Positions 6,097 through 13,986 of a stretch of 18,419 nt of DNA are shown piece after piece (position 1 is the first letter of the stretch; every line of letters begins with the position of its first letter). Origin of the DNA: Clostridia bacterium (lineage in GTDB: Bacteria > Bacillota_A > Clostridia > Christensenellales > Borkfalkiaceae). The position numbers and the translations under genes are program-made. The notes under the pieces are model-generated. The model searched no databases. It was not told the DNA's origin and saw nothing but the letters and a program-made list of their open reading frames with translations. The stretch is from positions 1 to 18,419 of the forward strand of contig JAFTIG010000052.1 in the NCBI GenBank assembly GCA_017457015.1, read 5' to 3'.

Positions 6097-7416
6097 TTAA
6101 AGGACGATAAGTAGTGCCGCCGCCGAAGTAACAAGGGTGGGAATTGCCACCGCTGCTCCGTATAGAACGAATTTGTAAAAGGGCATTTTTACGTCGTACT
6201 TTGCTAAAATTTTATTCCACATAATCCCTGCAAGCGCACCTACGGGGGTGATGAAAGCACCGACGTTAGAGCCGATTATAGAGCCGTAAACGGCAGGGAG
6301 ATTTGCACCTGACGCTATACGCTCAAAGAGCACGCTCATAGGTATGTTGTTTAGTAGGTTTGCAGAGAGTGCGGAAAGGAAGGTAAAACTTATCCCGTCC
6401 GTCTTTGTTCCGCTAGATAGTAGGTTTGTCAGCGCGTCGGTAACCCCGTTTTCTTTTAACGCCAAAACGATTATGAACATTGAGAGAACGAAAGGTATAA
6501 GTTCGTACGGCTCTTTCTTTAACGAGCGCCATACGGGCGTTGCAGAGTGCATTACGATTAAATCGTACGCTAAATCAAAAGCAGTAAGACTCAACGCCAA
6601 AACAAGACATATAAGCCACATTTCCACGGCAATAAGGTCTGCAACCGCTAAAAGTATTATACAAATCAACAAATGAACGATAGCGATAATCATAGGCACT
6701 CGCGATATTTTTACTTTATGCACGGGCGAGCGTTCGAGTTCTTTTTGTAATCTGCCCGATACGGGGAGTAAAAGTTGTTTCCTAAAAAGCAACAATATTA
6801 TACATAACCCCGTTATACCGCCGACTATCGCAGGTAGCCACATTACCGAAAGATACTCGGTAAAGGTTATCCCGAACGAGCCTGCAAGATATACGTTAGT
6901 GGGATTTCCAACAATAAGCATCATACTCCAAGTGTTTGCCGCAACGAATTCCCCGAACAAATATGGTAGCGGAGAGATCTTTGCTTTTTTTGCAAATATG
7001 CATATAGGGGGAGTAAAGGTTAAAATAATAACGTCGTTTGAAGTGAAGATTGTCAGGATGGATACGACTGCGTAAAGTATTAAAAACAGTTTAAGTTGTC
7101 CGCCTTTACTTTTTAAGAAAACGGTGTCTGCTATGTAGTCGAAAAATCCCGCGTCACCAAGGTAAACGGATAAAAGAGTCATTGAAAGGAAGAGTGCAAG
7201 TATTTTTAAGGGGTTTACGGAAGTATTTGCGGTTATTCCGTCGATTGCAGAAGAAAGGTCTATGCAATTTGTTAAAAGCATAGCCACCGCACCGATTAAA
7301 CAAATAATCCAGTAAAGTCCGACTTTAAATTTGCCTATATTGATATAGGGCTTAAATAGTACCGCACCTATCATAGACAGCGCGGTAAGTCCTGCAATGA
7401 TTATCGTCAATATCAT
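6097..7416 (-). CDS. ArsB/NhaD-type (ion transporter superfamily) permease
   Basis: A 439-residue integral membrane protein with 10-12 hydrophobic segments, length typical of ArsB/NhaD/SLC13-type permeases. Two re-entrant-loop-like motifs support this: FTSNDVIILTFTPPI in the first half with VGNPTNVYLAG shortly after, and NLLNNIPMS with GSNVGAFITPVGALAGIMW in the second half. In ArsB proteins the corresponding GSNLGPNLTPIGSLA motif is characteristic. Possible roles are arsenite efflux or anion/sodium-coupled transport. No arsR, arsA or arsC gene is beside it, so arsenite is not established. ATG is preceded by a weak GGA. It is the first gene of the minus-strand operon and has a good promoter about 30 bases upstream. 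Confidence 0.8.
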   Translation of the reverse strand: MILTIIIAGLTALSMIGAVLFKPYINIGKFKVGLYWIICLIGAVAMLLTNCIDLSSAIDGITANTSVNPLKILALFLSMTLLSVYLGDAGFFDYIADTVFLKSKGGQLKLFLILYAVVSILTIFTSNDVIILTFTPPICIFAKKAKISPLPYLFGEFVAANTWSMMLIVGNPTNVYLAGSFGITFTEYLSVMWLPAIVGGITGLCIILLLFRKQLLLPVSGRLQKELERSPVHKVKISRVPMIIAIVHLLICIILLAVADLIAVEMWLICLVLALSLTAFDLAYDLIVMHSATPVWRSLKKEPYELIPFVLSMFIIVLALKENGVTDALTNLLSSGTKTDGISFTFLSALSANLLNNIPMSVLFERIASGANLPAVYGSIIGSNVGAFITPVGALAGIMWNKILAKYDVKMPFYKFVLYGAAVAIPTLVTSAAALLIVL

Positions 7417-7449
7417 AATCTTTTTCCGTTGGTAAATAAACTAAAAGAA

Positions 7450-7478
7450 ATTATATCACGCCTTAAATTTTTTTACAA
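7450..7478 (-). promoter_or_regulatory. sigma-A promoter of the permease operon
   Basis: On the minus strand TTGTAA (7473-7478) and TATAAT (7450-7455) are 17 bases apart, with a TG extended -10 element (TGATATAAT). The predicted start near 7443 leaves a 5' leader of about 26 bases before the ATG at 7416. Confidence 0.75.
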
Positions 7479-7564
7479 CAAAAAGACGGGCGTAAAATAA
7501 AATTACGACGGGTTTATTCCTTTTACATAGTAGAGTATCGCGCGTGATAAAATTAAAAATTCAC

Positions 7565-7596
7565 TTGACAGCAAGGGGGGGGGGTAGTGATATGAT
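7565..7596 (+). promoter_or_regulatory. promoter with a poly-G spacer, possibly phase-variable
   Basis: A consensus -35 box TTGACA (7565-7570) and a -10 box TATGAT with extended TG (7588-7596) are separated by 20 bases that contain ten consecutive G (7575-7584). A spacer of 20 is three longer than optimal. Slippage of the G-run would move it toward 17 and change promoter strength, as known for poly-G/poly-C promoters in Neisseria and Haemophilus. No other G-run of this length is present in the window. Homopolymer length may be affected by assembly error. Confidence 0.55.
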
Positions 7597-7636
7597 AAAT
7601 ATATAACCTTTAAGGGAATAAAAAGGAGAGAAGTGT

Positions 7637-9100
7637 ATGAATTGTATTAAGTGTGGTGCGCCCGTTCCAGACGGCGGAACGTTTTGCACTAAATGCGGAG
7701 CGAGAGCAGACGGTAAAAAGACCTGTATTTCTTGCGGTAACTTAATTGAAGATAGCGCGATTTACTGTACTTATTGCGGTGCAAGGGTGGACGGCAAGAA
7801 AACTTGCAAAAACTGCGGTGAAGTAGTTGACGGCAATTTTTGCACTAAATGCGGTTACGGCGTAAAAGAAAAAACTAGCGCAGTAACGGCAAAGCCAAAT
7901 CAACAAAAAAAACAAAAGGAAAAAGGCAAGGCGTTTGGAATTTACGTTAAAATACAAAAAATATTGTCGCCAAGTTTATATTTAGCGGCAATGCTCGTAT
8001 TGTTCGTGTGTTCGTTTTTTATAGGCATTGAAGTAACCACTACTACGGGCGCAGAAGAAACGTTCGGACCTTTTTACTTTTTTAGCGACGCGTTTATAGA
8101 AGTTGAAAAAACGCTTGCTAATTATAAAAACGATTTGAATTACGATCTTGTAATGAGTTTTGAAAATTTAACTACTATTATATGCTTGGTCGTTATATGC
8201 TTAAATTTCATTGCGCAAACGGTGCTTGCTATCGTCGGCGGTATAAAAGGCGGTAGGGGAATTTATAGAAAAAAGCAAACGGGCGTAAAAAAATACGCGG
8301 TCGGTATGTTTATATCTTATTTAATAACGGTATTAGTTTTACTCGGCGTAAATTACGCTAAAGTTTGCGTCTATACTTCGCGACAAGATATGGACGGAGC
8401 GACCGAACTAACGGACGGCGGTTTGGTAGGGTTAATACTTCCTATCTCTTTAATAGTTTTAGCCTTTATATTAAAGAAAGTTGCCGACGGAAAGAGCGTT
8501 TTATCGGCAAGCAATTTAAAGAAGACGATTACGAGCGTAATAGTTGTTTTGCTTGCAGTAACGGTTGCGGTTTTAGCGGGCAGAGTAGGTTTAAGTGAAA
8601 CTTACGAAGAGTCTTATATGGATGTGACAATAAGTGGCAACGCTACTCAATTTTTGCTATTAATGGCACAAAGCATTCTTGGAATTAAAGGTGCGTCAGT
8701 TTATAACGATGCTATCGTTAAAACGCAAATTAGTTCGTTTGCGCAAATTTGTTCGGTGTTCGTTGCGGTTATAATTGTAGGGCTTGCAATCTACGCGTTA
8801 TTTAGTAAAAAAGATTTTAAGGGTACGCTTATAATTTTATCGTCTATTATGCTTGCGCTTGCTATTTTAGATATTATAATAATGAGTGTGGCTGCAAACG
8901 GATGGATATCCGTATACGATTTACTGATTAAAGAATCGGCGGTAGAAGAATCAATAATTACTACAGGAAACACCAAAAGTATAGGAAGTATCGCCCTATT
9001 GATACTTTCCGCCGTCTTATTTGCAAGCGTAATAGTTTACTCGGCACTGAATAAGAAAAATCAAACTAAAAAAGAAGATTCGGAAGCGGAATTAGAATAA
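7637..9100 (+). CDS. triple zinc-ribbon multi-pass membrane protein
   Basis: A 487-residue protein of unknown function. The first 73 residues hold three tandem zinc ribbons: C3/C6/C17/C20, C30/C33/C44/C47 and C57/C60/C69/C72, separated by DGKKTC linkers that look like internal duplication. A lysine/glutamine-rich linker (about 82-100) follows, then about eight hydrophobic segments spread from residue 110 to 478, with a longer polar region around 135-170. A lysine- and acid-rich tail ends the chain. The ribbons are therefore expected in the cytoplasm with the rest in the membrane. Such zinc-ribbon-plus-membrane proteins are common in Bacillota and mostly uncharacterised. The start is fixed by AAGGAG (7623-7628), eight bases before ATG. 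It is a single-gene unit between the poly-G promoter and a terminator. Confidence 0.85.
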   Translation: MNCIKCGAPVPDGGTFCTKCGARADGKKTCISCGNLIEDSAIYCTYCGARVDGKKTCKNCGEVVDGNFCTKCGYGVKEKTSAVTAKPNQQKKQKEKGKAFGIYVKIQKILSPSLYLAAMLVLFVCSFFIGIEVTTTTGAEETFGPFYFFSDAFIEVEKTLANYKNDLNYDLVMSFENLTTIICLVVICLNFIAQTVLAIVGGIKGGRGIYRKKQTGVKKYAVGMFISYLITVLVLLGVNYAKVCVYTSRQDMDGATELTDGGLVGLILPISLIVLAFILKKVADGKSVLSASNLKKTITSVIVVLLAVTVAVLAGRVGLSETYEESYMDVTISGNATQFLLLMAQSILGIKGASVYNDAIVKTQISSFAQICSVFVAVIIVGLAIYALFSKKDFKGTLIILSSIMLALAILDIIIMSVAANGWISVYDLLIKESAVEESIITTGNTKSIGSIALLILSAVLFASVIVYSALNKKNQTKKEDSEAELE

Positions 9101-12451: not shown

Positions 12452-12538
12452 GCCTCTGTGGTGAAATTGGCAGACGCGCTGGACTCAAAATCCAGTGGTA
12501 GCGATACCGTGCCGGTTCGACTCCGGCCAGAGGCACCA
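12452..12538 (+). tRNA. tRNA-Leu (anticodon CAA)
   Basis: The 7-bp acceptor stem GCCTCTG/CAGAGGC, the anticodon stem CTGGA/TCCAG with loop CTCAAAA (anticodon CAA, reading UUG), and the T-arm GCCGG/CCGGC with TTCGACT loop are all intact. The D-arm has GTGAAATTGGCAGAC. A long variable arm (TGGTAGCGATACCG) marks a class II leucine tRNA. The CCA end is encoded (12536-12538). The open reading frame across it that begins MVKLADALDSK is a well-known spurious translation of tRNA-Leu. Confidence 0.97.
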
Positions 12539-13957: not shown

Positions 13958-13986
13958 TTGACAGGGTGTAAGATTTTTTATATAAT
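13958..13986 (+). promoter_or_regulatory. perfect-consensus sigma-A promoter
   Basis: TTGACA (13958-13963), a 17-base spacer and TATAAT (13981-13986) match the consensus at all twelve positions. The expected start near 13993 gives a leader of about 45 bases to the ATPase gene. Confidence 0.9.

Follow-up and report, generated by a model that had tools for sequence, protein, structure and literature searches.

A ten-G tract in the promoter spacer of a zinc-ribbon membrane protein gene: a candidate slippage switch within a recurrent clostridial promoter class

In Mycoplasma hyorhinis, poly-A tracts in the promoter spacers of the vlp genes switch a set of surface lipoprotein paralogues. Campylobacter possesses contingency genes with tracts of G8-G11, many per genome and mostly inside reading frames, and promoters of the MerR type provide examples of long spacers. 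The closest described counterparts of the locus presented here are two promoters with poly-G spacers. The porA promoter is reported to give high, intermediate and low expression with 11, 10 and 9 G, respectively (PMC3639595), and an initial annotation of the present DNA, which had cited Neisseria for slippage-type poly-G promoters, is correct to that extent. A second report describes the poly-G spacer of tp0126 as working best at a total of 17 (PMC7864442). The gut examples of phase variation in the available portion of a review are invertase-based, and we found no description of poly-G promoter switching in gut Clostridia in the open-licence literature, as judged from titles and the beginnings of abstracts. 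Here we describe a promoter with ten G in its spacer, located in a stretch of 18,419 bases (hereafter the window), together with the promoter class to which it belongs.

The promoter, its gene and the neighbourhood

A perfect -35 hexamer, TTGACA, is located at 7565-7570 on the + strand, and an extended -10 box, TGA-TATGAT, follows at 7588-7596 (TATGAT at 7591-7596, one base after a TG). The 20-nt spacer at 7571-7590 (+) reads GCAA-G10-TAGTGA and contains exactly ten consecutive G at 7575-7584 (+). The initial annotation had reported these two boxes, 20 bases apart with ten G between them, and the sequence at 7565-7596 bears this out in every detail. The gene at 7637-9100 (+) begins 40 bases beyond TATGAT, and a ribosome-binding site, AAGGAG, can be read at 7623-7628 (+), 8 nt before its ATG. 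A homopolymer therefore stands between recognisable -35 and -10 boxes of this gene's promoter, as it does in promoters of the porA type.

Both the tract and the box pair are uncommon in their surroundings. The G10 is the sole run of at least eight G on either strand of the window; the longest other run of G or C is 6, and none besides the G10 reaches 7. From the window's own G-to-G frequency, 0.0024 runs of G10 would be expected on the + strand, and the tract is longer than base composition explains. TTGACA occurs five times on the two strands together, and a TANNNT follows 13-23 nt on in two cases, at 7565 (spacer 20) and at 13958 (spacer 17, TATAAT). Because our stock promoter scan accepts spacers of 16-18 only, the promoter at 7565 is absent from its output.

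The controlled gene encodes a 487-aa membrane protein with three N-terminal zinc ribbons, as judged from Pfam and an AlphaFold model. The ribbons span residues 3-72 (7643-7852, +), match the Pfam DZR and zinc-ribbon families, and contain twelve Cys in three pairs of CxxC, all of which are invariant in an alignment of 11 homologues. In the AlphaFold model, which is of moderate confidence (mean pLDDT 74), eight long helices follow the ribbons between residues 98 and 471, and the protein is accordingly a predicted envelope product. Pfam gave no match outside the ribbons, and a PDB fold search gave nothing at E 0.001 or better; the best candidates, AMPA receptor complexes (E 0.02, TM 0.23), were rejected as meaningless. 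We thus retain the earlier description of a membrane protein with three zinc ribbons and no known role. The product is not a lipoprotein, nor is it an obvious surface antigen.

A protein search returned 13 proteins including the query, of which P0002 is near-identical, two are 81% identical, and the rest are 28-43% identical; the window protein itself is also recorded on a second contig. One of the homologues, P0005 (43% overall identity to the window protein), is almost identical to P0003 and P0004 in its zinc-ribbon N terminus and in its final 20 residues and has diverged in the part between; it is either a recombined paralogue or a chimaeric assembly. A near-mode search of the plasmid collection gave no match, and viral contigs gave one, which covers residues 1-23 of the window protein. 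In a comparison of PolA across a draw of 151 family genomes, those closest to the window were G358, G001, G331 and G002 (69-70% identical). The genes coaE and polA are encoded downstream of the window gene on the other strand, and in G002 a homologue of the window gene adjoins polA as well. A tRNA gene is present at 12452-12535 (+).

Upstream and divergent from the window gene is a CitMHS/ArsB-like transporter gene (6097-7416, -; identified by Pfam), for which the promoter scan called TTGTAA-17-TATAAT, with TG before the -10, at 7450-7478 (-). Between the two genes lie inverted, near-identical copies of GCGTGATA(T/A)AATT, at 7449-7461 and 7542-7554, one of which is the transporter's -10; these copies may represent a shared operator or a second promoter.

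We compared the window promoter with those of its homologues at 30 loci, taking 160 nt upstream of each gene; in L011, L059, L068 and L076 the script took a start other than that of the matched gene. A perfect TTGACA with a -10 box was present at 17 of the 30 loci, and under a -10 scoring that favours 17 nt the best -10 stood at 17 nt in 14 of them; two others had it at 18 and one at 21. Because of these 14 cases we take 17 nt to be the usual spacing for homologues of the window gene, from which the window promoter, 3 nt longer, departs by the length of its G tract. The loss of three G, which had been predicted to yield a 17-nt spacer, would therefore bring this promoter to the spacing that its relatives use, with the same leaning of the score towards 17. 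Most of the homologues with a perfect TTGACA have promoters that begin 48-84 nt before the ATG (72 nt in the window), and the GTGA that precedes the -10 in the window recurs, as GTGA-TAxxAT or similar, in L010, L016, L067, L069 and L072 among others.

The 21-nt exception, L071 in G370, itself carries a G tract in its spacer (TTGACA-ATGTC-G11-TATGT-TATAAT), and L073 in G418 has a G10 just upstream of its -35. No other upstream run of more than six G was found at the 30 loci; in L008 and L009, the nearest homologues, the promoter is a plain one with a 17-nt spacer and no G tract. Since the tract is present in the window, L071 and L073 and absent from the nearest homologues, G tracts at this gene are not conserved and seem to have originated on more than one occasion. 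In L008 and L009 (from G001 and G002), TTCTAA..TTAGAA palindromes surround the promoters, and a divergent reading frame upstream resembles, by eye, a helix-turn-helix repressor.

A recurrent class of poly-G spacer promoters

To place this promoter in context we used family-level and genus-level groupings around G001 and G358; the family around G001 may be the Borkfalkiaceae. The pattern TTGACA-N0-9-G7-N0-9-TANNNT was present in 161 of 398 genomes of this family, with about 586 forward match rows against about 7 for the reversed pattern, where one site may give several rows through multiple choices of -10. G417 alone gave 26 rows. When C was substituted for G, the pattern was found in 3 of 131 family genomes (5 rows), as compared with 42 genomes and 159 rows for poly-G in the same set. 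Nine of 44 genomes matched in the nearest genus-level group, where the class is thinner than elsewhere in the family. A class-wide draw gave matches in 18 of 291 genomes, including the family members G001, G018 and G068, with 5 rows in the reversed control. Because twelve of the other 15 genomes have a single row, against those 5 control rows, we consider the signal weak outside the family, with the exception of G096, which has six rows with tracts of G11-G14.

A sample that is independent of the promoter pattern gave a similar picture. The runs of G9 or longer in five whole genomes (71 listed, 68 distinct by their flanks) have a perfect TTGACA at most 20 nt upstream in 22 of 68 cases, as compared with a mean of 0.27 and a maximum of 3 for shuffled flanks, and good matches to both -35 and -10 surround 28 of 68 (shuffled mean 3.3, maximum 10). 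In G001, which is among the nearest relatives, the genome's single run of this kind lies in a promoter spacer, with a lipoprotein gene downstream. Of the 36 runs examined in G565 (38 listed), most lie outside promoters and all are exactly nine G; these are possible contingency genes of the Campylobacter kind. A viral collection contained seven stretches with the promoter pattern, G8 or longer and TATAAT, which entered our first comparison of identical spacer cores and were left out of the 199-string, 118-string, 14-group and downstream-gene counts reported below.

The genes behind these promoters are often lipoprotein genes. The first 134 sites that we examined were mostly the first matches listed, and 127 of them had a gene; later sites were chosen for repeated or one-G-different strings and so are not a random sample, and they are included in the lipobox and 118-string counts. 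A strict lipobox rule was satisfied by 55 of the 127 genes, as compared with 0 of 42 in a control set taken from the fetched stretches of relatives, in which TTGACA..TATAAT promoters are G-free. The strict rule missed at least one lipoprotein in a wider control, and we loosened it for both sets before a final count, in which one gene was taken per distinct N terminus and rules of our own making were applied rather than a trained predictor. The looser rule gave a lipobox in 95 of 177 genes, as compared with 8 of 68 in the G-free control (p = 5.5e-10), and a lipobox or a hydrophobic N terminus was present in 131 of 177 against 19 of 68 (p = 7e-11). The same arrangement of -35, tract and -10 is thus a recurrent class in the nearest family, often situated before lipoprotein or envelope genes, and the poly-G spacer architecture in the window is no coincidence.

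Pfam searches of 17 representative products identified BspA-type leucine-rich repeats, bacterial Ig-like and InlB-type domains, collagen repeats, a subtilase and a camelysin-like protein, as well as ABC transporters with or without FtsX, an AraC regulator, DUF975, a zinc-ribbon protein (L339) and the G370 homologue of the window protein (L239); for L288, L182, L231 and L346 a match was absent or, below the cut-off, senseless. The lipoprotein family of G417 includes, among the sites examined, 10 distinct genes, each with its own G8 promoter and without differences in tract length. A set of lipoprotein genes in this genome (L312 and L317-L332) lies behind near-identical G8 promoters with 15-nt spacers, and one of the set encodes BspA-type repeats. 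In G642, the genes at L344-L347 lie behind spacers with G10-G17; three have like N termini, and one of these three matched camelysin. Within the G-free control set, L254 and L280 of G565 have C9 in the spacer and lipobox genes downstream, and poly-C switches may therefore also exist, rarely.

Tract length, spacing and competing explanations

We examined tract lengths in 199 distinct strings with TATAAT among the matches listed, each typed once; two entries were excluded, one a G631 site that contains two G runs and the other the longer of the alternatives at a G615 site. Among these listed matches G8 occurs in 39 strings, G9 in 107, G10 in 40 and longer tracts in 13, the longest being the G17 of G642. 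The spacers of the same 199 strings range from 13 to 24 nt and cluster at 15-16 and at 18-19, leaving a trough at 17, whereas G-free promoters have a sharp peak at 17 (41 of 59). The flanks on either side of the tract compensate for each other in length (r -0.83 for the 199 strings among the matches listed, and -0.81 when 118 strings were counted again without preference for any spacer length), from which we conclude that the spacing of the boxes is under selection. The G count is uncorrelated with flank length (r 0.00 and -0.01), and this apparent independence is as expected if tract length drifts by slippage. The 17-nt spacing was observed in 9 of 118 strings against 18.8 expected, and 42 of 20,000 permutations of the G counts gave a value as low. 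The tract lies 0-9 nt from either box, which are the limits of the pattern, and has no fixed place; we considered the G run as a protein-binding site and regard this as unlikely for that reason.

Direct comparison of lengths gave a mixed result. Spacer cores that are identical at different loci form 14 groups, five of which differ in length, each by one G, while nine are of the same length. Three of the five (L305/L338, L341 and L342/L343) had been fetched because their printed strings differed, and the uniform groups, which include eight G417 and four G106 paralogous promoters, contain G417 and G106 groups fetched because they repeat; among the groups met before any such choice, two of seven differ in G count. 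The closest differing pair, L088 (G10) and L129 (G9), comes from two genomes with flanks 97.7% identical, and in each of the other four the sites that differ are paralogues from a single genome and do not represent strains. All 18 G417 sites among the matches listed have G8. Seven of 103 poly-G sites fall within 100 nt of a contig end, where 0.9 would be expected, indicating that assemblies break at these sites; the excess may reflect mixed tract lengths or poor sequencing through poly-G. Taken together, slippage in this class of spacers is likely on the sequence evidence. The phase-variable switch that the initial annotation had suggested is partly supported. Its promoter type turns up repeatedly across the nearest family, with G in the tract far more often than C and often before lipoprotein genes; with respect to change in length across the class, the five groups that differ have to be set against the nine that do not.

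Several features could instead point to a fixed, regulated promoter class, in which the G run would be a stable structural part (a stiff, over-long or over-short spacer), its length under selection, and transcription would need an activator or a particular supercoiling state. The predominance of G9, by far the commonest length among the matches listed, could mean a preferred fixed length and is a point against a slippage switch; in addition, the G417 paralogues (among the matches listed) and those of G106 keep one length, the avoidance of 17 nt implies that the assembled state is mostly non-optimal, as in activator-dependent promoters, and long-spacer promoters of the MerR type are known to exist. 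A slippage switch also gains no explanation from loss of mismatch repair, which we examined and rejected as a driver: MutS_I was found in 72 of 80 genomes, and those that lack it include poly-G-rich (G467, G615) as well as poly-G-free ones. Since most genomes of either kind have the protein, nothing points to a mutator state. Other points against a switch are the lack of conservation of the tract at this gene, the thinness of the class in the nearest genus-level group, the many G565 runs outside promoters and a product that is no obvious surface antigen. Nevertheless, a single regulator would hardly accommodate a tract that lies anywhere between the boxes and spacers that are commonly either long (18-20) or short (15-16). 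The independence of the G count from the rest of the spacer, the single-G differences between identical cores and the occurrence of tracts of G14-G17 likewise speak against a fixed class, which we consider unlikely.

Two further explanations concern the window itself. Transcription could start from a possible extended -10 further upstream, TGATAAAAT, at 7545-7553 (+), which is preceded by TTTACA at 7522-7527, forms part of inverted repeat I1 and is almost identical to the -10 of the divergent gene; the G run would then lie in the 5' leader, where it might act on RNA or translation or have no role. The spacer of this alternative is also 20 nt, and its -35 is one base off, whereas TTGACA and TATGAT form the better pair, lie at a distance from the ATG within the range of the homologues and fit the family-wide class. 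We regard the upstream start as very improbable. Less credible still is an assembly or sequencing artefact, or a chance run. Homopolymers are error-prone, and a metagenome assembly may misstate their length by one base or more, but a strand- and position-specific signal in 161 of 398 genomes would not be expected from error, nor a G10 in the window from chance, given the expectation of 0.0024.

Proposed switch and comparison with known systems

We propose, as the probable reading, that the G10 is the variable-length spacer of a sigma-70 type promoter, and that slippage moves the -35 and -10 boxes relative to each other and thereby switches the gene, as one of many. During replication, polymerase would slip on the G run and add or drop single Gs, so that the distance between the boxes shifts around the 17 bp used by the gene's relatives. 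At 20 bp (G10), by analogy with the characterised promoters, RNA polymerase would bind poorly and the gene would be low or off; expression would rise on the loss of two or three G, and at about 17-18 bp (G7-G8) the gene would be on. As one of a set of promoters that switch independently, it would contribute to variation in envelope proteins among the cells of a population. In mechanism it would match Neisseria porA and Treponema tp0126.

More broadly, we lean towards the view that this family of uncultured gut Clostridia uses slippage promoters with poly-G genome-wide, about ten to twenty in the richest genomes, to switch independently surface lipoproteins (BspA-type leucine-rich repeat, Ig-like and InlB-type), secreted proteases, ABC exporters, AraC regulators and zinc-ribbon membrane proteins, and that with most tracts off the 17-bp optimum, most cells are off and few are on. 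If this is true, these commensals possess a multi-locus phase-variable repertoire that arises from spacer length rather than from inversion. Because the promoter signature is simple and can be counted in any metagenome, the question is directly testable with existing reads.

Comparison with known systems separates the window promoter from the MerR type. Such promoters have a spacer of 19-20 nt that holds the inverted repeat of the regulator; the window spacer, also 20 nt, contains no inverted repeat with both arms inside it. The tracts of Campylobacter are mostly in reading frames, whereas those described here occupy promoter spacers, although many of the G9 runs in G565 lie outside them. The vlp genes of M. 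hyorhinis resemble the G417 family in that surface lipoprotein paralogues each have their own homopolymer promoter; the vlp tracts are poly-A and their variation has been demonstrated, while those of the Clostridia are poly-G and putatively variable. Treponema pallidum tp0126 shares with the window a poly-G tract between -35 and -10, and differs in belonging to a spirochaete and to an OmpW-like gene. In N. meningitidis porA, a tract of 9-11 G likewise stands between -35 and -10 of an envelope protein gene. The porA promoter is a single locus in a Gram-negative pathogen, whereas in these uncultured gut Clostridia such promoters occur at many loci per genome, often at lipoprotein genes. Spacer slippage is an already known mechanism, and what appears to be new is its proposed use at many lipoprotein loci of gut Clostridia and at a zinc-ribbon gene.
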